DNA of 64,000 nt from Dongia mobilis (lineage in GTDB: Bacteria; Pseudomonadota; Alphaproteobacteria; Dongiales; Dongiaceae). The translations under genes were made by a program, and so were the position numbers. The notes beneath the pieces were generated by a model. It made no database searches and had not been told where the DNA came from. It saw only the letters and a list, made by a program, of their open reading frames with translations. Shown here piece after piece: positions 4,825-22,969 of the stretch; the stretch's first letter is position 1, and each line of letters opens with the position of its first letter. The stretch spans positions 124,001 through 188,000 of the forward strand of contig NZ_SNYW01000001.1 of assembly GCF_004363235.1 (NCBI RefSeq). The letters are read 5' to 3'.

Positions 4825-5380
4825 AGTCCGCTACCCGCTGGGCAGCCTGGTGAAGGATTACCTGATCGGCCTTCTGGGACTTGCCGCCATCATCAATATC
4901 CTGACCTCGCTGGAGCCGGGCAGCGGCTTGTTCTGGTTCTTCCTGGCGCTCGGCCTGTTCTTCCTGGTGATGCTGCTGCACGGCGCCCAGCGCCATGTGA
5001 CGCGTGTCACACTCGGTGAAGATGGCATCGCCATCGGGCCGATCCATCGCCGCTTTATCGCCTGGAACGATCTCAAAGGGTTGAGTTTGAACTTTTACCC
5101 GGTACGATCCTGGCTCGGGCGGAACAAGGGGGGATGGATGGCGCTCAAGCTGAAATCGGATCGCAGCTCGATCGCGCTCGATTCCGACCTGCCGCATTTC
5201 CAGAGCATTGTCACCAAGGCGGCGCTGGCGGCGCGGGAAAACGGCGTCCTGGTGGATGCCTATACCGCGCACAACCTGCAATCCATCGGCGTCAGGCTGG
5301 ACGAGGCGGAGGCGAGCGCCGGGGGGCCGCCGCCCGATCTCGGCGGCGAAGTGCGGCCGGATGGCGAGGCGCGGCCATGA
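4817..5380 (+). CDS. Small membrane protein of unknown function, PH-domain-like
   Basis: 187 residues, overlapping the preceding stop by 8 nt and the following ATPase start by 4 nt (ATGA). Two hydrophobic helices occupy roughly residues 10-32 and 38-55, followed by a cytosolic part. That part has the strand pattern VTLGEDGIAIG..RFIAWNDLKGLSL, which resembles bacterial PH-like/DUF domains. The last 25 residues are low-complexity and rich in Gly, Pro and Glu. I do not recognise a named family. Its place between the glycan genes and the ABC importer, coupled to both, is its most informative feature. Confidence 0.65.
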   Translation: MIEVRYPLGSLVKDYLIGLLGLAAIINILTSLEPGSGLFWFFLALGLFFLVMLLHGAQRHVTRVTLGEDGIAIGPIHRRFIAWNDLKGLSLNFYPVRSWLGRNKGGWMALKLKSDRSSIALDSDLPHFQSIVTKAALAARENGVLVDAYTAHNLQSIGVRLDEAEASAGGPPPDLGGEVRPDGEARP

Positions 5381-7278
5381 CCGATCTCCTCAAGGTTAAC
5401 AATCTGGCGGTCGACTTTGCCCTCGAGGGTGGCTCGATCCAGGCGGTGCGCGGCGTGTCGTTCCGCGTGCCGGCGGGCAAGACCGTGGCGCTGGTGGGTG
5501 AATCCGGGTCCGGCAAATCGGTCTGCGCACAGGCGATCATGGGCCTGCTGCCGCGTTCGGCCACGATCCGTTCCGGCGAGATCCTGTTCGACCGACGCAC
5601 CAGCGGTGGCGACTGGAGCGAGAAGGGCGGTATCGTCGACATCGCCAAGCTGGGCCGCGACGGGCCGGAAATGCGGGCCATCCGCGGCCGCGCCATCTCG
5701 ATCATCTTCCAGGAGCCGATGACCTCGCTCTCGCCGGTGCACACGATCGGCGACCAGATTGGCGAGGCGCTGCAACTGCATCTCAAGCTGAGCGAAAAGG
5801 AGGGCAGGGAAAAGGTTATCGCGATGCTGCGCGCGGTCGGCTTCCCGGATCCGGCGCGCGCCGTCAAGACCTATCCCTTCGAACTGTCCGGCGGCCTCAG
5901 GCAGCGGGCGATGATCGCCATGGCGCTGATCTGCAACCCCTCGCTGCTCATCGCCGACGAACCGACCACGGCCCTCGACGTCACCATCCAGGCGCAGATC
6001 CTCAAGCTGATGGCGGATCTGCAGAAGGAACTGGGCATGGCGATGCTGATGATCACCCATGACCTCGGCGTCGTCGCCAATGTCGCCGACGAGGTGGTGG
6101 TCATGTATCACGGCGAGGTGATGGAGGCCGGCCCGGTCGAGGCCATCTTCCGGGCGCCGGAACATCCCTATCTCAGGGCGCTGATGCAGGCGGTGCCGCG
6201 ATTCGGCATGACCGACGCGGAACGCCTGGTGCCGATTCGCGAAATCAAGAGCGAGGCCGGGCCGCTGTTCCAGGAAAAGCAACCCTGGCCGGAAGGCGCC
6301 GACAAGGCGGGTCCGCTCCTCGACGTGCGCAACGTGCAGAAGGGCTTCACCATCAAGAAGGGCGGCTTCTGGGGCGGCGGGCACCAGCAGAAGGTGACCG
6401 CCGTGGCCGATGTCAGCTTCGAGGTGAAGCGCGGCGAGTGCCTGGGACTGGTGGGCGAATCCGGCTGCGGCAAGACGACCCTGTCCAAGATCATCATGCG
6501 CGCCCTGTCGCCCGACAGCGGCGAGATCTACTACAACGATCGCGGCCGCCGCCTCGACGTACGCGGCATGAGCGGCGCCGACCTCAACGAATACCGCAAG
6601 CGCGTGCAGTTCGTGTTCCAGGACCCGATCGGTTCGCTCAACCCGCGCATGACGGTGTTCGACATCATCAGCGAGCCGCTGGTGATCCACCGGATCGGCG
6701 ATGCGGCGATGCGCGCCGAGGCGGTGAAGGAGTTGATGGCACTGGTCGGCCTCGACATCCGCCATTTGCGGCGCTATCCGCACAGCTTCTCGGGCGGTCA
6801 GCGCCAGCGCATCGGCATCGCCCGCGCGCTCGCGCTCCGACCCGATCTCATCATCTGCGACGAACCGGTCTCGGCCCTCGACGTGTCCATCCAGGCGCAG
6901 ATTCTCAATCTGCTCAAGGATATCAAGGCGAAGCTCGGCCTGACCTACATTTTCATCTCGCACAATCTGGCCGTGGTCGATTACGTCGCCGACCGCATCA
7001 TGGTGATGTGCGCGGGGCGCGTGGTCGAGATGGCGCCGACGCAGGAATTGTTCCGCAATCCGCTGCATCCCTATACCAGGGCGCTGCTGGCCGCCGTGCC
7101 CAATCCCAGCCTCGACGACTGCCTCGATTTCGGCCGCGTCATGGAGGAGAAGGCCTCGCAGCCTGCGGCCTGGCCGGCTCCCTTCACCATCGATGCCGAC
7201 AATCAGCCGACGCTGATCGATATCGGCAACGAACATTGGGTGCGCGCCGATTTGTCGATCCGGAGAGAAGCCGCATGA
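5377..7278 (+). CDS. Dipeptide/oligopeptide ABC transporter ATPase, DppD-DppF fusion
   Basis: 633 residues with two complete nucleotide-binding domains in one chain. The first has Walker A GESGSGKS (41-48), signature LSGGLRQR and Walker [13 protein letters not shown]. The second has Walker [10 protein letters not shown], signature FSGGQRQR and Walker [13 protein letters not shown]. Each domain ends in the oligopeptide-type extension ([18 protein letters not shown]). The fused form is common for peptide-type importers. It energises the permeases encoded at 9263 and 10291. Overlap of start and stop codons with both neighbours indicates one transcript. Confidence 0.92.
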
Positions 7279-9245
7279 AACACCTACGCGCGCGCATTTC
7301 CCGCGTCCTCGGCCTCGTGCTGGCAGCGCCTGCCGTCCTGGCACTGGCGACGCTGCCCGCCCTGGCGGCCGAGGGGGCCCGGTTCATCGGCGCGCCCCTC
7401 TTTGCCGAGGCGGAGAAGGCGGGCGACCTGCCGCCGGTGGCGGAGCGGCTGCCGGAGCAGCCCCTCGTCACCGACATGCCGGCGATCGGCCGCCACGGCG
7501 GCGAGATCCGCACGCTGATGGCAAGCCCCAAGGACAGCCGCATCCTGGTGGCCTATTCCTATGCCAGGCTGGTTGGCTATGACCGCAATTTCGAGCTCAA
7601 GCCCGACCTTCTCGAATCCTTCGAGGTGGCGGAAGGGCGCATTTTCACCCTGCATCTGCGCAAGGGCCACAGATGGTCCAATGGCAAGCCCTTCACCACC
7701 GAGGATTTCCGCTTCTGGTGGGAGGATGTCGCCAATAACGAGGAGCTGTTCCCGGTCGGCCCGCCCGCGGTGCTGATCGTCGATGGCGAGAAGCCGCAGG
7801 TGGAGGTGATCGACGAGTTCACCATCCGCTATTCCTGGTCGCAACCCAACACCGAGTTCCTCCCGGCGCTGGCCGGGGCGACGCCGCTCTATATCTACCA
7901 GCCCGCCAAATACATGAAGAAGTTCCACGCCAAATACGCCGATCCGGCGGAACTCGAGGCGGCGGTCAAGGATAGCGGCCAGCCGAGCTGGGCGGCACTC
8001 TACAACCGGCGCGGCAACCAGTACCGCAACGACAATCCGAAACTGCCGACCCTCGATCCCTGGGTGCTGCGCATCAAGCCGCCGGCTGACCGCCTCGTCT
8101 TCGTGCGCAACCCCTATTACCACCGGGTTGACCGCAACGGCCGGCAGTTGCCCTATCTCGACCAGGTCGTGATGGATGTCGCCGATTCCAAGCTCATTCC
8201 GGCCAAGGTGGCGGCGGGAGAGAGCGACCTGCAGGCGCGCTATCTGCGTTTCGACAACTACACCTTCCTGAAGAAGGCGGAGAAGGAGGGGCGCTTTGCG
8301 CTGCACCTCTGGGAAGACAGCCGCGGCTCCAATTTCGCGCTGTTCCCCAACCTCAACTGCAACGACGAGGAATGGCGCAAGCTCAACCGCGACGTCCGTT
8401 TCCGCCGCGCGCTGTCACTGGGCGTCAACCGGCACGAGATCAACCAGGCGATCTATTACGGCCTCGGCAAGGAAGGTGCCAACACCGTGCAGGAGATGAG
8501 CCCGCTGTTCAGGTCGCAATATCGCCTTTCCTGGTCGGTGTTCGATCTGTCCACCGCCAACCGCCTGCTCGACGAGATCGGCCTCACTGAGCGCGACGAT
8601 GAGGGTTATCGCCGCCTGCCGGACGGCAGGCGCATGACCATCATCATCGAGACGGCCGGCGAATCGACCGAGGAAACCGACATCCTGCAGCTGATCAAGG
8701 ACAGCTGGCGGGAGCTCGGCATCGATATCTTCACCAAGCCGTCGCAGCGCGAGGTGTTCCGCGACCGCATCTTCACCGGCGAGACCATCATGTCGGTCTC
8801 CTTCGGCGTCGACAACGGCATCCCGACCCCGGACATGAGTCCGAAGGAATTCGCCCCGTCGACCCAGCAGCAATACATGTGGCCGAAATGGGGGCAGTAT
8901 ATCGAGACGCAGGGTGCCTCCGGCACCCCCATCGACCTGCCGGAGGCGCAGGAGCTGGCCGATCTGCTGGCGCAATGGCGCGGCAGCGCCGATGCCGACG
9001 AGCGGCGCGAGATCTGGGACCGGATCCTCGCCATCTGGTCCGAGCAGGTCTATTCCATCGGCACTGTCACCAACATTCCGCAGCCGGTCATCGTCGACAA
9101 GTCGATCCGGAATCTTCCCGACCAGGGTATGTGGGCCTGGGACCCGGGAGCCCATTTCGGCGTCTACCGCATCGACTGCCTGTGGCGCGAGCTGGCTCCC
9201 GAGGCCCTGGCTTCGCTCAGTCCGGTCGAGGATCGCCTGCAATAG
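7275..9245 (+). CDS. Extracellular solute-binding protein, family 5 (oligopeptide-type importer)
   Basis: 656 residues with a Sec signal peptide (twin Arg-rich n-region, hydrophobic core, cleavage near ALAAEGA, about residue 32). Family SBP_bac_5 hallmarks include the LKPDLLESFEV segment, LHLRKGHRWSNG and the long C-lobe typical of large peptide or oligosaccharide binding proteins. At over 600 residues it is longer than DppA/OppA (about 535), closer to the AgpA/YejA-like group, so the ligand may be a glyco-oligomer or modified peptide rather than a dipeptide. The ATG overlaps the ATPase stop (ATGA). Confidence 0.88.
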   Translation: MKHLRARISRVLGLVLAAPAVLALATLPALAAEGARFIGAPLFAEAEKAGDLPPVAERLPEQPLVTDMPAIGRHGGEIRTLMASPKDSRILVAYSYARLVGYDRNFELKPDLLESFEVAEGRIFTLHLRKGHRWSNGKPFTTEDFRFWWEDVANNEELFPVGPPAVLIVDGEKPQVEVIDEFTIRYSWSQPNTEFLPALAGATPLYIYQPAKYMKKFHAKYADPAELEAAVKDSGQPSWAALYNRRGNQYRNDNPKLPTLDPWVLRIKPPADRLVFVRNPYYHRVDRNGRQLPYLDQVVMDVADSKLIPAKVAAGESDLQARYLRFDNYTFLKKAEKEGRFALHLWEDSRGSNFALFPNLNCNDEEWRKLNRDVRFRRALSLGVNRHEINQAIYYGLGKEGANTVQEMSPLFRSQYRLSWSVFDLSTANRLLDEIGLTERDDEGYRRLPDGRRMTIIIETAGESTEETDILQLIKDSWRELGIDIFTKPSQREVFRDRIFTGETIMSVSFGVDNGIPTPDMSPKEFAPSTQQQYMWPKWGQYIETQGASGTPIDLPEAQELADLLAQWRGSADADERREIWDRILAIWSEQVYSIGTVTNIPQPVIVDKSIRNLPDQGMWAWDPGAHFGVYRIDCLWRELAPEALASLSPVEDRLQ

Positions 9246-9262
9246 AAGGTCGCTAATCCGTC

Positions 9263-10294
9263 ATGCTTCGCTACTTCCTGCAGCGCGTCCTGGTCATGGT
9301 GCCGACGCTGCTGATCATCAGCTTCCTGATCTTCGTCATCATCCAGGCGCCGCCCGGCGACTTCCTGGAAACCACTTTGGCCGAACTGCAGGCGCGCGGC
9401 GAAAGCATGGACCAGAACCAGATCGAGAGCCTGCGCGCCCTCTATGGCCTCGACCAGCCCTTCCATGTGCAGTACCTGCGCTGGCTGTTCGGGCAGTGGG
9501 ATGGCCTGAGCTACGTGAAGGGCGGCCTCATCTTCGGCGATCTCGGCTATTCGTTCGAATACAACCAGCCGGTGGCCGATATCGTCGGCGACCGGCTGGC
9601 GCTTACCGTGATCGTCTCGATCGCCTCGATCCTGTTCGTCTGGATCGTTTCCTTTCCCATCGCGGTCTATTCGGCGACCCACCAGTACGGCCTGTTCGAC
9701 TATATCTTCACCTTCGTCGGCTATCTCGGCCTGGCGACACCCAGCTTCCTCATCGCCCTCATCCTGCTCTATTTCGCCAATATCTGGTTCGGCACCTCGA
9801 TCGGTGGCCTGATGGACCCGGTCTATGTCGGCCAGCCCTGGTCGGCCGCCAAGTTCTGGAGCATCATGGAGCATATGTGGGTGCCGGTGCTGGTGATCGG
9901 CCTGCCCGGCACCGCCGGCATGATCCGCCGCCTGCGCGCCAATCTGCTGGACGAACTCAACAAGCAATATGTCACCACCGGCCGCGCCAAGGGCCTGCCG
10001 CCCCTGAAGCTGCTGGTGCGCTATCCCCTGCGCATCTCGCTCAACCCCTTCATCGCCGATATCGGCAGCCTGCTGCCGGAGCTGATCTCCGGTTCGGTCA
10101 TCGTATCCGTGGTCATGTCGCTGCCGATCACCGGACCGATGCTGCTTACCGCGCTGCGGTCGCAGGATATGTATCTCGCCGGGTCGTTCCTGATGTTCAT
10201 GGCCTTCCTGACCGTGATCGGCGTCTTCATCTCAGACATCCTGCTGGCGCTGCTCGATCCACGCATCCGGCTTGGCGCGGGAGCCGAAAAATGA
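9263..10294 (+). CDS. ABC transporter permease, DppB/OppB type
   Basis: 343 residues with six predicted membrane helices. The first is at residues 9-30 and is followed by a large periplasmic loop (about 31-105). The cytosolic coupling loop with the EAA-like pattern reads YVTTGRAKGLPPLKLL. It begins 17 nt after the binding-protein stop and its own stop overlaps the ATG of the partner permease, so the pair should be made stoichiometrically. It forms the membrane pore with the protein encoded at 10291. Confidence 0.9.
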   Translation: MLRYFLQRVLVMVPTLLIISFLIFVIIQAPPGDFLETTLAELQARGESMDQNQIESLRALYGLDQPFHVQYLRWLFGQWDGLSYVKGGLIFGDLGYSFEYNQPVADIVGDRLALTVIVSIASILFVWIVSFPIAVYSATHQYGLFDYIFTFVGYLGLATPSFLIALILLYFANIWFGTSIGGLMDPVYVGQPWSAAKFWSIMEHMWVPVLVIGLPGTAGMIRRLRANLLDELNKQYVTTGRAKGLPPLKLLVRYPLRISLNPFIADIGSLLPELISGSVIVSVVMSLPITGPMLLTALRSQDMYLAGSFLMFMAFLTVIGVFISDILLALLDPRIRLGAGAEK

Positions 10295-11493
10295 CCGATA
10301 TCGGCCAGCAATCCGGATCGAATGGCAATTCGCGCGGCGGCAGCCTGCTGCCGCATTTCGTCAATCCGAGGCCGTTCGACCCCTACGACGTCGAGAAGGT
10401 CAATCCGGCGCTCGAAAAAATCTACATGGCCAGCCAGTGGCGCATGATGTGGCTGCGTTTCCGCCGGCATCGCGTCGCCGTGTTCTGCGGCATCGTGCTG
10501 CTGGCCATGTATGCGGCCATCCTGTGTGTCGAATTCCTGGCGCCCTATAACCAGCACAGCCGCAATGTCGACTATATCTATACGCCGCCGCAGGACGTGC
10601 ATTTCTTCCACGAGGGGTCATTCATCGGCCCCTTCGTGTATGGCCTCGACTACCGGCTGGACATGGAGAATCTGGAGCGCGTCTATACCGAGCGGACCGA
10701 CGATCCGCGGCCGATCCGCTTTTTCTGCGCGGGCGATTCCTACAAGTTCTGGAACCTGATCGAGGGCAATCTGCACCTGGTCTGTCCGCCGGATTCGGAA
10801 ACACCGCTCTTCCTGCTGGGCTCGGACCGGCTCGGCCGCGACATGCTTTCGCGCATCCTCTACGGCATGCGCATCTCGCTCACCATCGGGCTCATCGGCG
10901 TCGCCGTCAGCTTTGCCCTCGGCATCGTCTTCGGCGGGCTGGCCGGCTATTATGGCGGGTGGATCGACGACCTGCTGCAGCGCACGATCGAGGTGCTGCG
11001 CTCGATCCCGCATCTGCCGCTGTGGCTGGCGCTTGCCGCCATCCTGCCGGTGGACTGGTCGCCGATGCTGGTCTTCTTCGGCATCACCATCATCCTCGGC
11101 CTGATTGACTGGACCGGACTCGCCCGCGCGGTGCGGTCGCGCCTCCTGTCGCTGCGCGAGGAAGATTTCTGCGTTGCCGCGCAGCTGATGGGGGCGAAGC
11201 CGGGCCGCATCATCTTCCGCCACCTGATGCCCAGCTTCATGAGCCATCTCATCGCCTCGGCGACGCTGGCTATCCCCGGCATGATCCTGGGCGAGACGGC
11301 GTTGTCCTTCCTCGGCCTCGGCATCCGGCCGCCGATCACCTCCTGGGGTGTCCTGCTCAACGAGGCGCAGAACATCAACGTGGTGGCGCTCTATCCCTGG
11401 CTGATGCTGCCCATCCTGCCGGTGATCGTGGTGGTCCTTGCCTTCAACTTCCTGGGCGATGGGCTGCGCGACGCGGCCGATCCCTATCGCTGA
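10291..11493 (+). CDS. ABC transporter permease, DppC/OppC type
   Basis: 400 residues, ATG overlapping the partner permease stop. A hydrophilic N-terminal tail of about 50 residues precedes the first helix (IVLLAMYAAILCVEF). An unusually large periplasmic insertion follows, containing HVDYIYTP-like and FFCAGDSYKFW segments, before the SDRLGRDMLSRILYG motif typical of DppC. The EAA loop is FCVAAQLMGAKPGRIIF. The extended external domain matches the permeases that accompany very large binding proteins and supports a ligand larger than a dipeptide. Last gene of the long overlapping chain. Confidence 0.9.
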   Translation: MTDIGQQSGSNGNSRGGSLLPHFVNPRPFDPYDVEKVNPALEKIYMASQWRMMWLRFRRHRVAVFCGIVLLAMYAAILCVEFLAPYNQHSRNVDYIYTPPQDVHFFHEGSFIGPFVYGLDYRLDMENLERVYTERTDDPRPIRFFCAGDSYKFWNLIEGNLHLVCPPDSETPLFLLGSDRLGRDMLSRILYGMRISLTIGLIGVAVSFALGIVFGGLAGYYGGWIDDLLQRTIEVLRSIPHLPLWLALAAILPVDWSPMLVFFGITIILGLIDWTGLARAVRSRLLSLREEDFCVAAQLMGAKPGRIIFRHLMPSFMSHLIASATLAIPGMILGETALSFLGLGIRPPITSWGVLLNEAQNINVVALYPWLMLPILPVIVVVLAFNFLGDGLRDAADPYR

Positions 11494-13126: not shown

Positions 13127-13266
13127 GGAAATGCGCTCCGCAAACGCGTGATGGGTGGCATCGGGTCACCGCAGGCTGACCGAATCCGCCCGTCGAAGTC
13201 AAGCAAAAGCCCGCCCAGCCCTCATATAACCTCCTGATTGATAATATCTTTTTGTCTTTCATCAAG

Positions 13267-13284
13267 TTGTAACAATAGTGTCGT
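13267..13284 (+). promoter_or_regulatory. Candidate Pho box upstream of the pst operon
   Basis: TTGTAAC-AATA-GTGTCGT: two 7-mers 11 bp apart, matching the PhoB direct-repeat layout (consensus CTGTCAT-N4-CTGTCAT) with TGT at both key positions. It lies about 40 nt before the pstSC start chosen here. An open GTG at 13278 falls inside it, which argues against that codon being the true start. PhoB is encoded in the same operon, so autoregulation is expected. Confidence 0.6.
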
Positions 13285-13322
13285 ACTTGACCCGGCAACG
13301 AAGCCAAAGAGGTTCCCGACCC

Positions 13323-15695
13323 ATGGTCCGAGATCGCCGGCCGGCCGCCCCCGCGCAAACCCCAGCGCCAATTCCCGGGCAGCCCGATGAAGGCCAACCG
13401 CCGCGCGGTCTGCTCGCCGCCCTGGCGGTGGCGCTCAGCCTTGTCCTGGGGCTGGCAGCCCCGGCTCAGGCCAGGGACCAGATTCACATCGTCGGTTCCT
13501 CGACCGTCTATCCCTTCTCGACCGCGGTGGCCGAGCATTTCGGCAGTGGCGAATTTCGCGCGCCAGTAGTCGAGGCATCGGGCACCGGCGGCGGCTTCAA
13601 GCTGTTCTGCGCCGGTCTTGGCGCGAACACGCCCGACATCGCCAACGCCTCGCGCCAGATCAAGGACAGCGAGGTCGAGACCTGCCGGGCCAACGGCGTC
13701 ACCGAAATCGTCGAGATCGAGATCGGCTATGACGGCATCGTGCTGGCCAGCTCGAAGCAGGCGCCGTCCCGCGCCCTTAACCTGCGCGACCTCTACCTCG
13801 CCCTCGCCAAGACCGTGCCGGTCGACGGCGCGCTGGTGCCGAACCCCTATCGCAGCTGGAACGAGATCAACCCGGCGCTGCCGGCCGCGCGCATCGAGGT
13901 TCTGGGCCCGCCGCCCACCTCCGGCACGCGCGACGCGTTCCTCGAACTGGTGATGGAGCCGGCCTGCCACGCCTTTCCGGAAGTGGCGGCCATCGCCGAC
14001 AAGAACCAGCAGAAGGCGCTGTGCCAGACCCTGCGCGAGGACGGCGCCTATATCGACGCCGGCGAGAACGACAATCTCATCGTGCAGAAGCTCTCCGGCA
14101 ACCCGGCCGCCTTCGGCATCCTCGGCTATTCCTTCCTCGCCGACAATCTCGACCGCCTGCAGGGCAGCGCTGTCGACGGTGTGGCGCCGACCGAGGAGAA
14201 CATCATCGGCGGTGCCTACCGGATCGCGCGCAAGCTCTACATCTATGTCAAGAAGCAGCATCTCGAGCTGGTGCCGGGCCTCGGCGAATTCGTTGCCGAA
14301 TTCGTCTCGGACCGCGCCTCGGGCCCGCAGGGCTATCTCGCCGACAAGGGCATGATCCCGATGCCGGCGCCCGAGCACGATATCGTGGCGGCGGCGGCCC
14401 TTGCCGCCCTGCCGATCGCCAGCTCGCTCGGCGCCGGCCTCGACCTCGGTCCCGCGGCGGCGCTGCTGCCCTGGGGCACCGTGGCGCTGCTGCTGATCCT
14501 ATCCTCGATCGGTTTCCAGCTTGGCCGACGCCGTGCCTTCGCCTCGGTCGGCGGCCGCGCCCGCCAGCTGCACTCGCTGCCGGGCTATCACGGCATCTTC
14601 GTCGGCCTCGGCGCCTTCCTGCCCGGCGCCCTCGCCCTGCTTGCCGGCGTCTTCGTCGTCCGCAGCCTGCCGGCCGAATCCAGCCGCGACGTGATCTGGG
14701 CGGCGATCGCCGCCGCCACCTTCGCCGCGGCTGCCATCGGCCTGGCCTGGGCGCAGCGCCATATCAGCGCCCAATTCCGCGCCCGCAACGCGGTCGAGCG
14801 CGCGGTCATGGTGTTGCTCATCGTCTGTTCGCTGCTCTCGATCCTCACCACCATCGGCATCGTGCTGTCGCTGGTGTTCGAGGCGCTGCGCTTCTTCGCC
14901 ACCGTTTCGCCGTTCGAGTTCCTGTTCGGCCTGCAATGGTCGCCGCAGATGGCGATCCGGGCCGACCAGGTCGGCCAGTCGGGCGCCTTTGGCGCCGTCC
15001 CGGTCTTCGCCGGAACGATGCTGATCACCATCATCGCCATGGCGGTCGCCGTGCCGATCGGCCTGATGGCGGCGATCTATCTCTCCGACTATGCCGGCAA
15101 GAAGACCCGCAGCTGGGCCAAGCCGCTGATCGAGATCCTGGCCGGCATCCCGACCGTGGTCTACGGCTTCTTCGCCGCCCTGACCGTGGCGCCGCTGGTG
15201 CGCAATGCCGGCAATGCCCTCGGCCTTGATGTCGCCTCCGAATCGGCGCTCGCCGCCGGCCTCGTCATGGGCGTCATGATCATCCCGTTCATCTCCTCGC
15301 TCTCCGACGACGTGATGAACGCGGTGCCGCAGAGCTTGCGCGACGGCGCCTATGCGCTGGGTGCGACCAAGTCGGAAACCATCCGCCAGGTGGTGGTGCC
15401 GGCGGCCCTGCCCGGCATCATGGGCGGCATCCTGCTGGCCGTCTCGCGCGCCATCGGCGAAACCATGATCGTGGTCATGGCGGCCGGCCTCACCGCGCGC
15501 CTCACTGCCAACCCGCTGGATGCGGTGACGACCGTGACCGTCCAGATCGTCACCCTGCTGGTGGGCGACCAGGAATTCGACAGCCCGAAGACGCTGGCCG
15601 CCTTCGCCCTCGGCCTCGTCCTCTTCGTGGTGACGCTGATCCTCAACATCGTCGCCCTTCACATCGTCAAGAAGTATCGAGAGCAATATGAGTGA
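13323..15695 (+). CDS. pstSC: Fused phosphate-binding protein and permease, PstS-PstC
   Basis: A single 790-residue open frame with two Pst subunits. Residues 1-50 are a long-n-region signal sequence (hydrophobic core 29-46, AQA at 48-50). Residues 51 to about 350 are a PstS domain with phosphate-binding loops GSSTVYPF (58-65), SGTGGGFKLF (86-95) and PPTSGTRDAF (197-206), ending at GYLADKGMIPMP. After a linker of about 30 residues, a first helix (383-399) is followed by GRRRAFASVGG and then a complete PstC permease with the EAA loop LRDGAYALGATKSE. No stop, frameshift or internal ribosome site is visible at the junction (14370-14469). The topology is consistent: PstS outside, first PstC helix running out-to-in with GRRR on the cytosolic side. 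The stop overlaps pstA by 8 nt. The start at 13323 is preferred because a GTG at 13278 lies in the Pho box. Confidence 0.88.
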   Translation: MVRDRRPAAPAQTPAPIPGQPDEGQPPRGLLAALAVALSLVLGLAAPAQARDQIHIVGSSTVYPFSTAVAEHFGSGEFRAPVVEASGTGGGFKLFCAGLGANTPDIANASRQIKDSEVETCRANGVTEIVEIEIGYDGIVLASSKQAPSRALNLRDLYLALAKTVPVDGALVPNPYRSWNEINPALPAARIEVLGPPPTSGTRDAFLELVMEPACHAFPEVAAIADKNQQKALCQTLREDGAYIDAGENDNLIVQKLSGNPAAFGILGYSFLADNLDRLQGSAVDGVAPTEENIIGGAYRIARKLYIYVKKQHLELVPGLGEFVAEFVSDRASGPQGYLADKGMIPMPAPEHDIVAAAALAALPIASSLGAGLDLGPAAALLPWGTVALLLILSSIGFQLGRRRAFASVGGRARQLHSLPGYHGIFVGLGAFLPGALALLAGVFVVRSLPAESSRDVIWAAIAAATFAAAAIGLAWAQRHISAQFRARNAVERAVMVLLIVCSLLSILTTIGIVLSLVFEALRFFATVSPFEFLFGLQWSPQMAIRADQVGQSGAFGAVPVFAGTMLITIIAMAVAVPIGLMAAIYLSDYAGKKTRSWAKPLIEILAGIPTVVYGFFAALTVAPLVRNAGNALGLDVASESALAAGLVMGVMIIPFISSLSDDVMNAVPQSLRDGAYALGATKSETIRQVVVPAALPGIMGGILLAVSRAIGETMIVVMAAGLTARLTANPLDAVTTVTVQIVTLLVGDQEFDSPKTLAAFALGLVLFVVTLILNIVALHIVKKYREQYE

Positions 15696-17004
15696 CGCGA
15701 AGATGAACGGCACCGCCGCCGCGCGGCCGAATCCGCGGCCGAACCTCAGCCAGCAATGGATCCGGCGCCGCTACGCCGCGGAACGCCGCTTCAGGCTCTA
15801 TGGCCTCCTGGCCGTGGCGGCGGCCATCGCCATGCTGGCGGTCCTCCTGGTCTCGATCGTCGGGCGCGGCTATTCCGCGTTCTACCAGACCCAGGTCAGC
15901 CTCGACGTCTTTCTCGACCCGGCCGAGATCGCCGCCGATGGCCGGACCGATGCCGACACGCTGATGGGCGCCAACTACATGGCCCTGGTCCGCGAATCGC
16001 TGCGCGGCATCTTCCCCGAGGTCACCGGCCGCACCGAGCGACGCGACCTCAACCGCCTGATCTCCAACAGTGCCGGCGACGTCGTCCGCACGGCCGTGAT
16101 GGATGACCCGTCGCTGATCGGCCAGACCATCCGCCTCACCTTCCCGCTCGACGACAAGATCGGCATGCTGCACAAGGGGTTCATCGACCGCAATTTGCCG
16201 GAATCGGAACGTGTCGTATCGGACAGAGAAATCGCCTGGTACGACCGGCTGGTTTCGGAAGGGCTGGTCAGCACCGGCCTCAACTGGAACTTCCTCAGCA
16301 AGGGCGATTCGCGCGAGCCGGAACAGGCCGGCATCCTCGGCGCCTTCATGGGGTCGATGTTCACCATGCTGGTGACCATCGTGCTGGCACTGCCGCTCGG
16401 CGTCATGAGCGCCATCTATCTCGAGGAATTCGCGCCGAAGAACCGCGTCACCGAACTGATCGAGGTCAACATCAACAACCTTGCGGCCGTGCCCTCGATC
16501 GTGTTCGGCCTGCTCGGCCTCGCCGTGCTGCTGGGTGTCTTCGGCATGCCGCGCTCGGCGCCGCTGGTCGGTGGCGTGGTGCTTTCGCTGATGACCCTGC
16601 CCACCGTCATCATCGCGACGCGCGCGGCACTCAAGGCGGTTCCGCCTTCGATCCGCGAGGCGGCCTATGGCGTCGGTGCCTCGCCGCTCCAGGTGGTGCT
16701 GCACCACGTCCTGCCGCTGGCTACGCCCGGGATCATGACCGGCGCCATCATCGGCCTTGCGCGTGCGCTCGGCGAATCGGCGCCGCTGCTGATGATCGGC
16801 ATGGTCGCCTTCATCGTCGACGTGCCGGGCGCCGTCACCGACCCGGCGACCGTCCTGCCGGTGCAGATCTATCTCTGGGCCGACAGCCCGGAACGCGCCT
16901 TCATCGAGAAGACCAGCGCCGGCATCATGGTGCTGCTGGCCTTCCTCATCACCATGAACGCCATCGCCATCTTCGTTCGTCGCCGCTTCGAGCGGCGCTG
17001 GTAA
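15688..17004 (+). CDS. pstA: Phosphate ABC transporter permease PstA
   Basis: 438 residues, overlapping pstSC by 8 nt. The N-terminal 40 residues are basic ([13 protein letters not shown]) before helix 1. A large periplasmic domain of about 150 residues follows (about 65-205), the DUF3333-type extension typical of alphaproteobacterial PstA. The permease core then begins at [12 protein letters not shown], with the coupling loop [17 protein letters not shown] and the conserved [13 protein letters not shown]. It pairs with the PstC half of the fused protein to form the inner-membrane phosphate channel. Confidence 0.93.
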
Positions 17005-17015
17005 GGAACCTAAAA

Positions 17016-17792
17016 ATGAACGCGATTTCCCCCGCAATGTCCAAGATGTCCGGCCGCAAGGTGACGGTGCATTACGGCCAGAAGCAGGCCCTGTTCGACG
17101 TCAACCTGGAGATCCCCGAGCGCATGGTGACGGCGCTGATCGGCCCGTCGGGCTGCCGCAAGTCGACCTTCCTGCGCTGCCTCAACCGCATGAACGACGT
17201 GATCGACGGCTGCCGGGTCGGCGGCGAGATCGTGCTCGACGGCCAGGACATCTATGACGCCAGCCTCGACGTGGTCATGCTGCGGGCGCGGATCGGAATG
17301 GTGTTCCAGAAGCCGAATCCGTTCCCCAAATCGATCTACGACAATGTCGCCTACGGCCCGCGCATCCACGGCATGGGCGCCACCAAGGCCGAGCTCGACG
17401 AGATCGTCGAAAGCTCGCTCACCCGCGCCGGCCTCTGGAATGAGGTCAAGGACCGGCTCGACCAGCCGGGCACCGGCCTTTCCGGCGGCCAGCAGCAGCG
17501 CCTGTGCATCGCGCGCGCCATCGCGGTCAGCCCGGAGGTGATCCTGATGGACGAGCCGTGCTCGGCCCTCGATCCCATTGCCACTGCAAAGATCGAGGAA
17601 CTGATCGACGAGCTGCGCGAGAACTTCACCATCGTCATCGTTACCCACTCGATGCAGCAGGCAGCCCGCGTCAGCCAGAAAACGGCTTTCTTCCACCTCG
17701 GCTATCTGATCGAATGGGGCGATACCGAGCAGATCTTCACCAGCCCGAAGGATGAGCGCACCCAGGGCTATATCACCGGCCGCTTCGGCTGA
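17016..17792 (+). CDS. pstB: Phosphate ABC transporter ATPase PstB with altered Walker A
   Basis: 258 residues and otherwise a textbook Pst[19 protein letters not shown]-loop, signature LSGGQQQRL, Walker [14 protein letters not shown]-loop [10 protein letters not shown]-terminal YITGRFG. The Walker A, however, reads GPSGCRKST (43-51): the glycine before the catalytic lysine is Arg48 (CGC, 17157-17159) instead of Gly (GGC). That glycine is nearly invariant in P-loops, so ATP binding could be compromised unless the base is a sequencing error. The rest of the gene shows no decay. It lies 11 nt after pstA and 13 nt before phoU. Confidence 0.92.
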
Positions 17793-17805
17793 GGAGCAGA
17801 TAGCC

Positions 17806-18519
17806 ATGCCCAACAAAGCCCCCGACCATATCGTCAAGAGCTTCGACGAGGAACTGCGGCGCCTGCGCGAGCAGATCCTCGCCATGGGTGGCCGCGCCGA
17901 GGCACAGCTGGTCGACGCTGTCGCGGCTCTCGCAAAGCGCGATTCCGAGAAGGCCGTGCGGGTCATCGAAAGCGACAAGAACATCGACGCCATCGAGATG
18001 CAGGTGGCGCAGGACTCGCTGAAGGTGCTGGCACTGCGCCAGCCGATGGCGAAGGATCTGCGCGAGGTGGTGGCCGCAATCAAGATCTCGTCCGATATCG
18101 AGCGCATCGGTGACTATGCCAAGAACATCGCCAAGCGCGCCCTGCAGCTGAACCAGCTGGCGCCGCTGCGGCCCACCAGCTCGATCCCGCGCATGGGCGA
18201 CCTCGCTGTGAAGCTGATCAGCGCAGTGCTTTCGGCCTATGCCAATGACGATGCCGACGGCCTGCTTGCCGCCTGGCGCTCGGACGAGAGCATCGACGAG
18301 ATGTACAATTCGCTGTTCCGCGAGCTGCTCACCTACATGATGGAGGATCCCCGCAATATCGGTGCCTCCACCCACCTGCTGTTCATCGCCAAGAACATCG
18401 AGCGGATCGGCGACCACGCCACCAATATCGCCGAGACGGTGCATTTCCTGGTCCATGGCAAGCCCATTGACGAGACGCGCCCGAAAGGAGATACGACGAA
18501 TGTTGCGATCAATGCCTGA
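17806..18519 (+). CDS. phoU: Phosphate transport system regulator PhoU
   Basis: 237 residues, two PhoU three-helix bundles in tandem. The paired metal-binding motifs are SSDIERIGDYAKNIA (first repeat) and AKNIERIGDHATNIA (second), the E-x3-D-x3-N pattern that binds Fe/Mn clusters. The start MPNKAPDHIVKSFDEEL at 17806 matches the family N-terminus; an in-frame extension upstream overlaps pstB and is rejected. PhoU couples the Pst transporter to repression of the PhoR/PhoB system. No phoR is present in this window, so the sensor kinase must be encoded elsewhere. Confidence 0.94.
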   Translation: MPNKAPDHIVKSFDEELRRLREQILAMGGRAEAQLVDAVAALAKRDSEKAVRVIESDKNIDAIEMQVAQDSLKVLALRQPMAKDLREVVAAIKISSDIERIGDYAKNIAKRALQLNQLAPLRPTSSIPRMGDLAVKLISAVLSAYANDDADGLLAAWRSDESIDEMYNSLFRELLTYMMEDPRNIGASTHLLFIAKNIERIGDHATNIAETVHFLVHGKPIDETRPKGDTTNVAINA

Positions 18520-18544
18520 CCGCACTGGACCTGACCGCACTGGA
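18515..18544. repeat. 15-bp tandem duplication at the phoU stop, stacking in-frame stops
   Basis: Two exact copies of CCTGACCGCACTGGA (18515-18529, 18530-18544) and a partial third (CCTGAGCGC). The phoU TGA (18517-18519) is in the first copy, and because the period is 15 the TGA recurs in frame at 18532 and 18547. The same arrangement with an unrelated 15-mer occurs at the HIT gene end (12716). Confidence 0.85.
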
Positions 18545-18601
18545 CCTGAGCGCGTGATTTCCGAACGCGCCCGACGGTCTGATGTGCTGCGGGGCGAACC
18601 G

Positions 18602-19306
18602 ATGAACGACCAGCGATCGAAGCCCGTCGTCCTGGTGGTCGAGGACGAACCGGCGCTTCTTACCCTGCTGCGCTACAACCTGGAGGCCGAGGGCTACCGG
18701 GTGGTCGAGGCCGTCAATGGCGAGGAGGCGCTGGTCCGGGCCCGCGAGGAAACGCCGGATCTCATCCTGCTCGACTGGATGCTGCCGCTGGTATCCGGAA
18801 TCGAGGTGTGCCGGCAGATCCGCCGCATGCCGGATTTGAAATCGGCCGCCATCATCATGCTGACCGCCAAGGGCGAGGAGGCGGATAAGATCCGCGGCCT
18901 CGAAACCGGCGCCGATGACTACGTAACCAAGCCGTTCAGCCCCTCGGAGCTGATGGCCCGTGCCAAGGCGGCGCTGCGCCGCGCGCGCCCGCAATCGGGC
19001 GACGAGAACCTGACCTATGCCGACCTCTCGATGGATCTGGCGACGCACCGCGTGCGCCGCGCGAATCGCGACCTTCATCTGGGGCCGACCGAGTTCCGCC
19101 TGCTGAAATTCCTGATGGAGAACCAGGGCCGCGTCTTTTCGCGCGAGCAATTGCTGGATCATGTCTGGGGTCGCGACATCTATGTCGAGCCGAGAACGGT
19201 CGACGTCCATATCCGGCGCCTCCGCAAGGCGATCAATATCGACGGCCTGCCGGACCTGATTCGCACCGTCCGCTCGGCCGGCTACGCGCTGGATATCGAG
19301 GGCTGA
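18602..19306 (+). CDS. phoB: Phosphate regulon response regulator PhoB
   Basis: 234 residues. Receiver domain about 8-125: acidic pair in VVEDEPAL, phospho-acceptor Asp in LILLDWMLP, Thr in MLTAKG, Lys in YVTKPFSP. A linker then leads to an OmpR/PhoB winged helix (about 135-230) with LGPTEFRLLKFLM, REQLLDHVWG and VDVHIRRLRKAI. ATG 18602 is preferred; upstream open frame is made of the 15-bp repeat and lacks conservation. It follows phoU by 82 nt in the same direction and probably activates the operon through the Pho box at 13267. Confidence 0.94.
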   Translation: MNDQRSKPVVLVVEDEPALLTLLRYNLEAEGYRVVEAVNGEEALVRAREETPDLILLDWMLPLVSGIEVCRQIRRMPDLKSAAIIMLTAKGEEADKIRGLETGADDYVTKPFSPSELMARAKAALRRARPQSGDENLTYADLSMDLATHRVRRANRDLHLGPTEFRLLKFLMENQGRVFSREQLLDHVWGRDIYVEPRTVDVHIRRLRKAINIDGLPDLIRTVRSAGYALDIEG

Positions 19307-19365: not shown

Positions 19366-21630
19366 TCACCCGGTCTTGCTGCGTGCCACATGGACGCCGT
19401 CCCAATCGGCGGGCGGCGGATCGGCACGGTATTCGGCGATACGGGCGGCATAGAGGTCATAGAATCCCGCCAGCGAATCCGGGGCGAGGCGGCGCGCTTC
19501 GGCGAGGGCCTGTTCCGCCGCCGGCCAGTCCTTGCCGCGATAGGCGGCGAGCAGTTCTTGGTGCGCCGGCAGCAGCGCTTGATAGGCGGCCGAGCCGGCA
19601 ACCGTCTCGTCGCCGAGAACGGTATAGATGCGCACCGGCTGGGCCTTCCCCTTGACCCGCACCTGGTCGAGTTCGATGCGTGCGAATTCCGGCACCGTCG
19701 CGGCGGTCTCCTGGCCGATCACCAGATCGACTGCATAGACGGGCGAGAGCGCCTCGAGGCGCGAGGCAATATTGACCGTGTCGCCGAGGACCGAATAGTC
19801 AAAACGCTGTTCCGAGCCCATATTGCCGACGCAGGCAAGCCCCGTATTGATGCCGATGCCGATGCGGATCTCGATCGGCGCCGCGCCGGAAGCAGCTGCC
19901 TCCGTCGCGAAATCGCGGTTGATGCGGATGAGTGCCGCGCGCATGTCGAAGGCGGCCAGCACCGCCATGCGTCCGTGCGGCGCCACCTCGAGCGGCGCGT
20001 TCCACAGCGCCATGATGCAGTCGCCGATATACTTGTCTATGGTGCCCTGGCGGCGCTGGATCACCTCGGTCATCGGGGTGAGGAAGGCGTTGATCACGTG
20101 GGTGAGCGCCTGCGGGTCGAGGCCCTCCGACAGGCGGGTGAAGCCGCGGATGTCGCAGAACATGATGGTGAGCTCGCGCAATTCGCCGCCGAGCTTCAGG
20201 CGCTCGGGATGCGCGGCCAGCTGGTCGACCAGGGCGGGGGAGAGATAGCGCGAGAAGGCGCCGCGCACGAAGGCCTTCTCGCGCTCGGAGCGGATATAGC
20301 CGAGAAGGGTCGCCGCCACGAAGATGACGAAGGCGATACCGGCGGGATAGAGCGGATCGAGCAGGAAGCCCTGCGACCGGAACAGATAGAAGGAGCCGCC
20401 GAAGGCGCCGCCGATGCCGATGAGCGCCACGGCAAGCCCGAACAGCGCCGCGCGCTTCTGCGCCAGGGCAACGAGGATGAGGCCGAACCCCAGCAGCGCC
20501 AGCTGCTCCAGCTGCGTCGCCCAATAGGGGCGGGTGAGATAGGTGCCGCTGGCGATCTGCTCGGCGATCTGGGCATGGATCTCGATGCCGGTCATGATCT
20601 CGGCATTGGGCGTCGGCTTGTAGTCGCGCAGGCCGGCGACCGAGGCGCCGATGAAGATGATGCGCCCCGCCACCTGGGCGGCATCAAAATCCGGGTTCCA
20701 GAGATCGGCCAGGGAGAAGAAGCGCTCGGTCTGGTGGCCGCTGTCATAGAGCAGGATGCCCCCATTGGCGCTGGTCGGCATGATGGCCTGGCCGATCTTC
20801 ACCATGGCGATGCCGCGGCTCTCGAACCATTGCTGCTCGCCGCTGGCGCCGCTCGACTTCACCTGATAGGTCCCGGCCCCCTGGGCGACGCGCAGCGCCT
20901 CGATGGCGAGGGTCGGACGGAAGGGGGTGGGATTGCCGGGCTCGGGCAGGCGCACAAAGGCCGGCACACGGCGGATGATGCCGTCGAAATCCGGCTCGGC
21001 ATTGACCGAGGCAATGCCGGCCGCGGCCTGCTGCAACGGCATCATCGTGGTGATCCAATAGGGCCAGGACGGCAGCAGATCCGCGGGATTGTCGCCGGCA
21101 AAGGCGAAGCCCGCCTTCTGCAGCGGCAGCTCCTGCGGCCGCTCGGGATCCGTCGCCTGGGTAGCGAAGGCGGTCACGGTCGGGATGCGCGCGATGGCAG
21201 CGGCCAGGGCCTGGTCCGGATCCGGCACGGCCTGGATCGCGCTTCGGACGGAGTCGAAGGCGGCATCTTCCGGCAGCATCGCGGCAAGGCCCGCGGGACC
21301 GGTCCGGTCGGGCTCGGCATAGATCACGTCGAGGGCGACCGCGGCCGCGCCCAGTTCGCGCAGCCGGTCGACGATTCGGGCCATCAGCCCGCGCGGCCAG
21401 GGCCATTGGCCGAATTTCTCCAGGCTTTTCTCGTCGATGTCGCCGATGCGTACCGGCAGGGTCGGGTCATAGGGACGAGGAACCAGGCGTTGATAGGTGT
21501 CGAAGGTAAGGTTGCGCAATTGCTGGATCGGCTGCGGGTCGTGCTGGCGCAGCAGGATCGCCCCCGCCAGCAGCACAAGCGGCACCCAGAGGCTGGGGGA
21601 TTGGCCCAGGAATCTCAGGCGCGAGAACAT
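19366..21630 (-). CDS. Adenylate cyclase with CHASE2 sensor domain
   Basis: 754 residues from ATG 21630 (a GTG at 21642 with a GGGGG upstream is an alternative; longer frames overlap the oxidase gene). Layout: helix at about 13-30, extracellular CHASE2 domain about 40-385, three membrane helices about 390-460, class III nucleotidyl cyclase about 475-660, then a short TPR-like tail. Catalytic residues look intact: metal Asp in TIMFCDIRGF and in DKYIGDCIMALW, the Lys and Asp (FDYSVLGDTVN) that select adenine, and the transition-state Asn/Arg in VNIASRLE. It should make cAMP in response to an unknown periplasmic signal. Convergent with phoB. Confidence 0.9.
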   Translation of the reverse strand: MFSRLRFLGQSPSLWVPLVLLAGAILLRQHDPQPIQQLRNLTFDTYQRLVPRPYDPTLPVRIGDIDEKSLEKFGQWPWPRGLMARIVDRLRELGAAAVALDVIYAEPDRTGPAGLAAMLPEDAAFDSVRSAIQAVPDPDQALAAAIARIPTVTAFATQATDPERPQELPLQKAGFAFAGDNPADLLPSWPYWITTMMPLQQAAAGIASVNAEPDFDGIIRRVPAFVRLPEPGNPTPFRPTLAIEALRVAQGAGTYQVKSSGASGEQQWFESRGIAMVKIGQAIMPTSANGGILLYDSGHQTERFFSLADLWNPDFDAAQVAGRIIFIGASVAGLRDYKPTPNAEIMTGIEIHAQIAEQIASGTYLTRPYWATQLEQLALLGFGLILVALAQKRAALFGLAVALIGIGGAFGGSFYLFRSQGFLLDPLYPAGIAFVIFVAATLLGYIRSEREKAFVRGAFSRYLSPALVDQLAAHPERLKLGGELRELTIMFCDIRGFTRLSEGLDPQALTHVINAFLTPMTEVIQRRQGTIDKYIGDCIMALWNAPLEVAPHGRMAVLAAFDMRAALIRINRDFATEAAASGAAPIEIRIGIGINTGLACVGNMGSEQRFDYSVLGDTVNIASRLEALSPVYAVDLVIGQETAATVPEFARIELDQVRVKGKAQPVRIYTVLGDETVAGSAAYQALLPAHQELLAAYRGKDWPAAEQALAEARRLAPDSLAGFYDLYAARIAEYRADPPPADWDGVHVARSKTG

Positions 21631-21727
21631 CCCGATCGACACGGCGTTTTGCCCCCGGAAAAAGCCAGCTACGGCGCGAATCGTCCCCGCCGGCCATCCT
21701 ATCAGGCTGGGCACGGAGGTAGCAAAA

Positions 21728-22969
21728 TCAGCCGGCGAGCGCCTTCCGGATGGCGGCAACCGCATCGATGCCGCTTTGCCGCGCGCCATGGGCGGTCGAG
21801 AAGGCGTCCGCCGAGGTCGCCTCGCCGGCAAAGAACAGGCGGTCGTCGATGGGCCGGGCCAGTTCCGCCCGGGCCTCGCCGCCGCCCGGCTTCAGCACCG
21901 AATAGGCGCCGCCCACCCAGGGATTGGCGACCCATTGTGTCGCCTTGGCCGCCACCACGTCGCGCACGATATCGGCACCGAAGACCCGGCCCAGCAGCGC
22001 GGTCGCCTCGGCGACGGCCGCCGCCTCGCCTTGGGCGAAGAGGTCGCGGGCAAAATGGGCGGCGGCGAACAGGGTGATCATCGGCCGGCCATAGGGCTTC
22101 ACCTGGAAGGCGCCATCCGGCAGGGCGGGGTCGTTCAGCATGGCAAAATGCATGTCGATGCCGGGGCAGGGGTCGCGCTTCAGCCAGAAGCCGACCTTTT
22201 CGGCATGGCCCATCTCGATCCGGTCGATCGCGTCCAGTTTCCAATCGGGCAGGCGCGGGAAGAAATTGAAGCGCTCCTGCTTAAGGGTGGGGATGGAGGT
22301 CGTGACCAGAACGGCGCGGCAGAAGATCATGCCCTGGGGTGTTCCCACCATGATCTCGCTGCCGCCCCAATCGACCGATTTCACCGGGCAGTTGAGGTGG
22401 ACCGGCACATGGGCATAGGTGGCGGCGACGAGCGCGCCATAGCCGTCCTCGACCGGCCAGTCCTCGTTGGTGTTGCGGTAGCGACCGGTATCGTAGGTCG
22501 AGGAGAATTCGGGCGCCGCCGCGACATAGCCCGAATAGTTGCGGGCAAAGAGCCCGGCCCAGGGATTGTCCCGGTCGATGAAGGTGGCGGCGGCGCGGTC
22601 ATCGCCGGCCGCCGCCGCCGCATCGATGCGGTCATAGGTATCGTGGACGAAGGCCCAGTATTCCTCGACAGCGGCGTCGTTGAGCCACCATTTGCCGTCA
22701 TGGATGCGGATCTGGAACGGCTGTTTCCAATAGCGGAAGCCGCGCCGGTCGGCTTCCTCCCGGAACGGGTTGATGCCGGCGGAATGCAGCCATTGGCAGC
22801 CATGGTCGAAGGGGGCCGGCAGGCTTGAGGTATCGGTGAAGGCGCGACCGCCGATGCGGTCCATCGCCTCCAGCAATTCGACATTGAGCCCGGCGCGGGC
22901 CGCCGCATCGGCGGCGGCGAGGCCAGCCGCACCGGCGCCGATGATGACAAGATCGCAGGATGTTTGCAT
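21728..22969 (-). CDS. FAD-dependent amine oxidase (flavin monoamine oxidase family)
   Basis: 413 residues. The N-terminal dinucleotide motif VIIGAGAAGLAAA (8-20) is followed by ELLEAMDRIGGRAFT, the amine-oxidase variant of the FAD-binding signature. DHGCQWLHSA, the VVEDGYGALV-type segment and the C-terminal FAGEATSADAFSTAHGA complete the family pattern. No signal peptide, so cytosolic. Start ATG 22969 was chosen because the motif begins at residue 8. It is transcribed with the upstream PuuR-like regulator (10 nt gap) and divergently from the polyamine-type importer, suggesting oxidation of the imported amine to an aldehyde. Confidence 0.88.
   Translation of the reverse strand: MQTSCDLVIIGAGAAGLAAADAAARAGLNVELLEAMDRIGGRAFTDTSSLPAPFDHGCQWLHSAGINPFREEADRRGFRYWKQPFQIRIHDGKWWLNDAAVEEYWAFVHDTYDRIDAAAAAGDDRAAATFIDRDNPWAGLFARNYSGYVAAAPEFSSTYDTGRYRNTNEDWPVEDGYGALVAATYAHVPVHLNCPVKSVDWGGSEIMVGTPQGMIFCRAVLVTTSIPTLKQERFNFFPRLPDWKLDAIDRIEMGHAEKVGFWLKRDPCPGIDMHFAMLNDPALPDGAFQVKPYGRPMITLFAAAHFARDLFAQGEAAAVAEATALLGRVFGADIVRDVVAAKATQWVANPWVGGAYSVLKPGGGEARAELARPIDDRLFFAGEATSADAFSTAHGARQSGIDAVAAIRKALAG

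Follow-up and report, generated by a model that had tools for sequence, protein, structure and literature searches.

The pst operon of Dongia mobilis encodes the phosphate receptor PstS and the permease PstC as a single polypeptide. As judged from sequence, this fusion is real, conserved and rare, and makes a tethered-receptor variant of the Pst system. We consider it about 70% probable that the operon specifies a phosphate importer served by two receptors, one resident on each permease and the other drawn from a soluble pool. The sequence facts are firm, and the two-receptor physiology is what we infer from them.

Receptor and permease in one reading frame

In the window (the whole stretch of 64,000 nucleotides that was analysed), a single frame on the forward strand runs uninterrupted from GTG 13278 or ATG 13323 to 15695 and encodes, in this order, a signal sequence, a complete PstS domain, a linker of about 38 residues and PstC (Table 1). 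The proposal of the earlier note on this DNA, that both domains lie complete in one unbroken chain, is therefore borne out, and the three phosphate loops that it named (GSSTVYPF, SGTGGGFKLF and PPTSGTRDAF) are all found in the frame. Counting residues from GTG 13278, the Pfam family PBP_like_2 (PF12849) matches above its cut-off at 61-346 (profile positions 4-267 of 267), DUF3708 matches at 402-456 with the start of the family only (1-54 of 166), and BPD_transp_1 matches at 591-801 (1-183 of 184). The NCBIfam PstC model TIGR02138 is covered over positions 2-295 of 296, and the PstC, PstA and PstB equivalogs TIGR02138, TIGR00974 and TIGR00972, all above cut-off, lie in one operon. The PstS family model TIGR02136 matches the fusion below its cut-off (136.6 versus 206.6 bits). 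The signal sequence is poorly conserved (dN/dS 0.33-1.01 in congener pairs), its cleavage site resembling by eye the AxA-RDQ/REQ of relatives, and the product from residue 51 onward has a computed mass of 77.5 kDa.

Table 1. Features of the pst region, in window coordinates
Feature	Position	Strand	Basis
Weak Pho-box-like repeat upstream of the fusion	13256..13273	+	10/14 matches to a Pho-box consensus
pstS::pstC fusion ORF, longest form (GTG); likelier start ATG 13323	13278..15695	+	ORF, Pfam, NCBIfam
Signal sequence, residues 1-50, ...APAQA/RDQ	13323..13472	+	Hydropathy peak 30-48; cleavage by eye
PstS phosphate-binding domain, residues 51-349	13473..14369	+	PF12849; 9jwy match; contact residues
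Linker, residues 349-386	14367..14480	+	Codon alignment; junction comparison; pLDDT
PstC N-terminal region, three predicted membrane helices, residues 378-486	14454..14780	+	Model helices; loop charges; DUF3708 start
PstC core, residues 491-790	14793..15692	+	TIGR02138; BPD_transp_1; fold match 9k3x_B
pstA with DUF3333	15688..17004	+	TIGR00974, PF11812
pstB	17016..17792	+	TIGR00972
phoU, longest ORF; true start probably internal	17752..18519	+	TIGR02135
phoB, longest ORF; true start about 18602	18362..19306	+	TIGR02154 matches residues 88-311

Elsewhere in the window, translations inspected by eye include an ORF resembling a membrane adenylate/guanylate cyclase (19366-21831, reverse strand) and ORFs resembling a peptide-type ABC importer (6438-11493, forward strand).

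Distribution of the fusion

The same fusion is present in five of the six congeners of the window genome. Across the family, a stop-free fusion was found in nine of 17 genomes, namely the six fused members of the genus g1 (G000, which is the window genome, G001-G004 and G006) together with G009, G012 and G015. Because the frame is stop-free in that many genomes, it cannot be put down to a fault of a single assembly. A sequencing or assembly artefact, for which the window itself offers nothing, has practically no chance of being the explanation: the frame is open in nine separate family genomes and in G032, and for the window the relatives refute it. The one place where an error may be at work is G013 (L052, 7213-9700), in which a one-base shift breaks the fusion frame directly behind the first PstC helix, through error or a real lesion. 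Separate pstS and pstC genes occur in four family genomes (G007, G008, G011 and G014), G016 yields a fragment only, and G005 and G010 gave no match at E <= 1e-60 in this 17-genome set.

The order has no further family in the genome set. Of 385 genomes surveyed from the class, 234 gave a match at E <= 1e-60. Among the matches listed, four fusions of the family and that of G032, the one fused genome outside the family, are stop-free and full-length. A phylum survey of 398 genomes gave 39 with a match at E <= 1e-200 and, among the matches listed, two stop-free full-length fusions, both of g1. These surveys list matches by score, with few candidates scored per genome, and very divergent fusions could be missed by them. 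Long open frames in G127, G315, G279, G136, G177 and G274 were considered as hidden fusions and proved, on an ORF check, to be separate genes. A single ORF for PstS and PstC occurs in none of 80 named loci taken from the matches listed in a further scan, which may lack close relatives of the window genome, and in 34 plasmid records all 18 rows annotated for both halves show two features. A full-text literature search, mainly of papers free of subscription, listed no PstS-PstC fusion. The search for other fused chains and their placement on a tree, which the earlier note had suggested, thus yielded fusions in nine of the 17 family genomes and in G032.

Proposed origin by duplication and loss of a stop codon

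The PstS tree unites the fused copies of g1 and G012 in one clade (100/96), with a clade of these genomes' free copies (97/86) as its sister (joint node 100/96); for G009, G015 and G013, free and fused copies fall into one group (92/89). By this tree the fused domain is the product of a pstS duplication, which, given the placement of fused and free copies, is older than the split between g1 and G012. The genus of G009, G015 and G013 either duplicated and fused the gene independently or shares the event with g1, gene conversion having obscured its trace. A single clade of the family's fused copies is not rejected by the AU test (PstS p 0.252, PstC p 0.461), and within the family either one or two origins would fit. 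The PstS part rejects one origin of all fusions, with G032 included (p 0.0076), whereas the PstC part does not reject it (p 0.299).

Gene order points to how the fusion may have come about. Four genomes have the unfused order phoR-pstS-pstC, and three have phoR-pstS-pstS::pstC, as does G013 with its frameshift. In G011 (L051, 7679-7690), pstS and pstC are in frame with TGAACC alone between them, an arrangement of the kind from which the fusion would arise and likely a picture of the pre-fusion state. According to this model, pstS was duplicated in tandem within the order phoR-pstS-pstC-pstA-pstB-phoU, and the copy adjacent to pstC may then have lost its stop codon and joined pstC in frame through the former spacer. 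Duplication without fusion is seen near one pstC of Zavarzinia aquatilis (L080), where free PstS genes lie at 1668-2696 and 4899-5978.

Such a stop loss between neighbours might also be a harmless accident with no special function. In relatives pstS and pstC stand in the same order and often in the same frame, with one to several stops between them, and the fusion arose at least twice by the PstS test above, as stop losses might. However, the fusion has been kept since before the g1-G012 split, its binding site and linker are under purifying selection, and every fused family genome has a free copy as well, as if this were needed alongside; we regard a neutral accident as very improbable.

The receptor half

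CpPstS of SAR11 (9jwy) matches the fusion over residues 51-349 (phmmer, E 1.1e-84). Passages of PMC12421899 name Ser32, Ser33, Thr34, Thr61, Ser83, Gly174 and Thr175 as its phosphate contacts, and the 9jwy alignment with a hand-derived offset gives S59, S60, T61, T88, S110, G201 and T202 as their equivalents. All seven are invariant in ten fusions and are also kept in seven free and four separate PstS proteins, the sole exception being the free G012 copy, with Ser in place of T88. By these residues, the fusion is a carrier of a PstS-family receptor with an intact phosphate site. The domain shares 48% identity with the Candidatus Pelagibacter protein by fold alignment, but CpPstS is a free protein and the domain described here is joined to PstC. 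Both belong to the PstS subfamily in which, by the same passages, Pro replaces the Arg of E. coli (PMC12421899).

The linker and the junction

The linker has 38 codons in all six fused g1 genomes, without an indel, and 39-50 in the four other fusions. Its dN/dS in five congener pairs is 0.060, 0.354, 0.264, 0.137 and 0.310, by which it is evolving as coding sequence under purifying selection. It begins with a half that looks like a free PstS tail, continues with about 17 new residues and leads into the start of PstC; the PstS tail apparently retained in the fused chain is PAPEHDIVAAAALAALPIAS, compared with PAAEHETVGVAAMALQPLTN of G011. In the window the linker is hydrophobic and alanine-rich, with a hydropathy peak at 354-372 that reaches 1.84. 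An extra membrane helix at 354-372 was considered and rejected: the stretch is charged in G003, G012 and G009, free PstS tails are similar, and such a helix would also turn the GRRR motif outward.

The chain might nevertheless be cut in the linker, or PstC might also be started internally, leaving PstS and PstC largely separate and the fusion merely coupling their synthesis. In favour of this are the composition of the linker and its predicted flexibility (pLDDT <50 at 366-374). The earlier note had described the junction as having neither a second start nor a ribosome site. As to starts this did not hold, for ATG 14352 and 14361, within the conserved PstS end DKGMIPMP, and GTG 14385 and 14481 are all in frame; as to ribosome sites it stands, none of the four being preceded, by eye, by a GGAGG-like run at normal spacing. 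In G032, GGGGGAG precedes a GTG. On the other side, GTG at the columns of 14385 and 14481 occurs, in our own reading of the codon alignment, in just three and two of ten fusions respectively, a linker fixed in length across six congeners is needless for a mere cut site, and free PstS is already encoded elsewhere. Separate products are therefore unlikely to be the main outcome.

The permease half and its topology

Unfused PstC of this type has about 460 residues, with three helices ahead of the core. The structure model of the fusion has nine long membrane helices, those of the PstC N-terminal region lying at 378-408, 420-448 and 455-479. The loop after the first of these contains five basic and no acidic residues, compared with 25 basic and 38 acidic in the PstS part. 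Since this loop is positive, the N-terminus of PstC should be outside, and a receptor can therefore be added there. The topology is predicted, from positive-inside charges and predicted helices, to put the receptor outside, in agreement with the arrangement that the earlier note had called workable (first PstC helix out-to-in, followed by GRRR).

The model was built from alignment A3 (44 rows, without free PstS rows); alignment A2, which includes them, was set aside because most of its PstS rows had some 53 C-terminal residues misplaced. Confidence in the model is moderate (mean pLDDT 79.1, pTM 0.51), and low at 17-62 and 77-94. A fold search with it gave TM-scores, by target length, of 0.84 for CpPstS and 0.64 for E. 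coli PstC of PstSCAB, to which (chain 9k3x_B) the permease also matches by profile. A short loop between TM2 and TM3 was examined as a mark of the fusion and discarded: it is short in g1 and G012 but long in G015, G009 and G032, and short in some unfused PstC too (e.g. L107 and L116). PstC cores also end ORFs of 861-976 aa in other Alphaproteobacteria (L072, L073 and L074), which represent a different, long type of PstC.

A second, free PstS

PBP_like_2 matches the window genome at exactly two places. One is the fusion; the other, 128 kb from it and on its contig (G000:C10:8314-9390), is a free PstS, which belongs to the same subfamily as the fused domain and is the second gene that the earlier note had proposed to look for. 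It is this second PstS only, and not the copy of the pst operon, that is a separate, soluble or lipid-anchored type of receptor. All nine fused family genomes also encode free PstS: in G009, G012 and G015 its gene is the tandem neighbour of the fusion, and in the six of g1 it stands elsewhere. The g1 copies are downstream of phoR, immediately so in G000, G002 and G004 and at a distance of 2-4 kb in G001, G003 and G006. In the window genome, phoR, free pstS and a xerC-like recombinase lie together (L040, 6317-10510, on G000:C10), about 128 kb from the window pst operon, and the other five fused g1 genomes have this trio too, with its members up to 4 kb apart. Besides its fusion, G032 carries two PBP_like_2 matches on a different contig, neither of them close by BLAST to the window PstS. 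With no close free paralogue found there, the two-receptor reading need not hold for G032. Its two matches are next to each other and belong to another subfamily (L291, G032:C48, 12864-14470 in the contig).

Several proxies bear on how strongly the two copies are expressed. Codon adaptation was scored against 15-19 ribosomal-region ORFs per genome, chosen by N-terminal letters, other ORFs being left out; a background of 35 ORFs was not relied on because it contains spurious ones. In all five genomes with their own ribosomal reference, free PstS scores above fused PstS (0.79-0.86 versus 0.61-0.73): 0.789/0.727 in G000, 0.823/0.708 in G001, 0.862/0.732 in G003, 0.824/0.728 in G012 and 0.786/0.608 in G009. 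The comparison is weakened by a ribosomal reference that itself averages only 0.69-0.72, a level that fused PstS also has. With the nearest reference borrowed from another genome, G002, G006 and G015 agree; G004 is nearly tied (0.816/0.801, a difference of 0.015) and is reversed with three of five references. The fused PstS of five genomes lies at most 0.013 above its own PstC, and in G007, G008, G011 and G014 unfused PstS outscores its PstC whichever of the five references is used. Consistently, dS is lower for free than for fused PstS in five of five congener pairs; dN is higher for the fused copy in four of five, the fused copy evolving somewhat faster. Higher codon adaptation and lower dS of free PstS are as expected of a more abundant product. 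Pho-box-like repeats were scored against a 14-position consensus: the fusion's 10/14 is reached by a fraction of 0.043 of 300 shuffles, free pstS scores 11-13/14 and fused 9-10/14 in all six g1 genomes, and the two are equal in G012 (13/14 both) and G009 (10 both).

The earlier note had supposed that a tether fixes receptor and permease at 1:1 and does away with the excess in which PstS is normally made. The fused frame would indeed give each PstC one tethered receptor, and this part stands; the supposed loss of excess is not supported, given the free PstS of all nine fused family genomes with its higher codon adaptation and lower dS. In the two-receptor reading, the export signal would take the PstS part across the membrane, where the first PstC helix, already out-to-in when unfused, would anchor it. 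Each PstC-PstA-PstB complex would then carry exactly one resident receptor that docks without a search, and free PstS, more strongly codon-adapted, would be the bulk pool under starvation, competing for the same docking site. At times of little free PstS, the resident receptor could sustain both transport and the Pst/PhoU signal to PhoR. With rather little confidence, one may go on to speculate that labour is divided, with tethered PstS as a self-contained sensor-transporter feeding PhoU/PhoR at all phosphate levels and free PstS scavenging in excess, and that tethering evolved on at least two occasions in Alphaproteobacteria because the N-terminus of unfused PstC was already outside.

It is also conceivable, if improbable, that the fused copy is a signalling receptor for Pst-PhoU-PhoR sensing and that bulk uptake is left to free PstS. 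A duplication with division of expression level, the position of the g1 fusion with phoU and phoB and of free pstS downstream of phoR, and the longer branches of fused PstS would suit this idea. Sensing and transport are, however, not separated by the sequence evidence; the binding residues are equal in both copies save for T88S in the free copy of G012, and seven fused and seven free domains differ consistently at just four aligned positions, the C-terminal tail aside.

Significance and relation to known systems

The fusion bears on the question of why most Gram-negative importers use free receptors and some importers tether theirs. Here, one family of 17 genomes shows the same type of permease with free PstS only, with tethered and free PstS in tandem, or with both apart, and close unfused controls are available among G007 to G015. 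Such matched pairs let the effect of tethering be tested on rate, affinity, phosphate signalling and the need for a free receptor. Where phosphate stress is gauged by counting pstS genes or PstS peptides, two receptors of different expression may be mixed in such genomes.

With PstSCAB of the E. coli type (9k3s, 9k3x and 9k3y) the system shares PstC, PstA, PstB and PhoU homologues and a PstS-like receptor. It differs in having receptor and permease in one chain, in retaining a second, free PstS, and in the three extra N-terminal helices of PstC.

GlnPQ and OpuA carry two or four substrate-binding domains per homodimer. They offer an analogy to the fusion, in which a flexible linker would likewise tie the receptor domain covalently to the permease; receptor and permease lie in one open frame here, and the linker is under selection. 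In GlnPQ the linker of SBD2 is given as 19 residues in a passage of PMC8025302. The fusion falls outside the OpuA/GlnPQ family of homodimeric glycine-betaine and polar amino acid permeases, its best families being PstC and PstA. Unlike GlnPQ and OpuA, which belong to other families and have other substrates, it would have one receptor per PstC-PstA pair, and a free paralogue coexists with it. A review mentions, in a passage that does not name Pst, a receptor fused to a transport domain. Another catalogued permease-receptor fusion is the PotCD-type permease/substrate-binding protein (NCBIfam NF043073) for spermidine/putrescine; the permease part matches the first fifth of this 1021-position model, and the domain order is apparently reversed.
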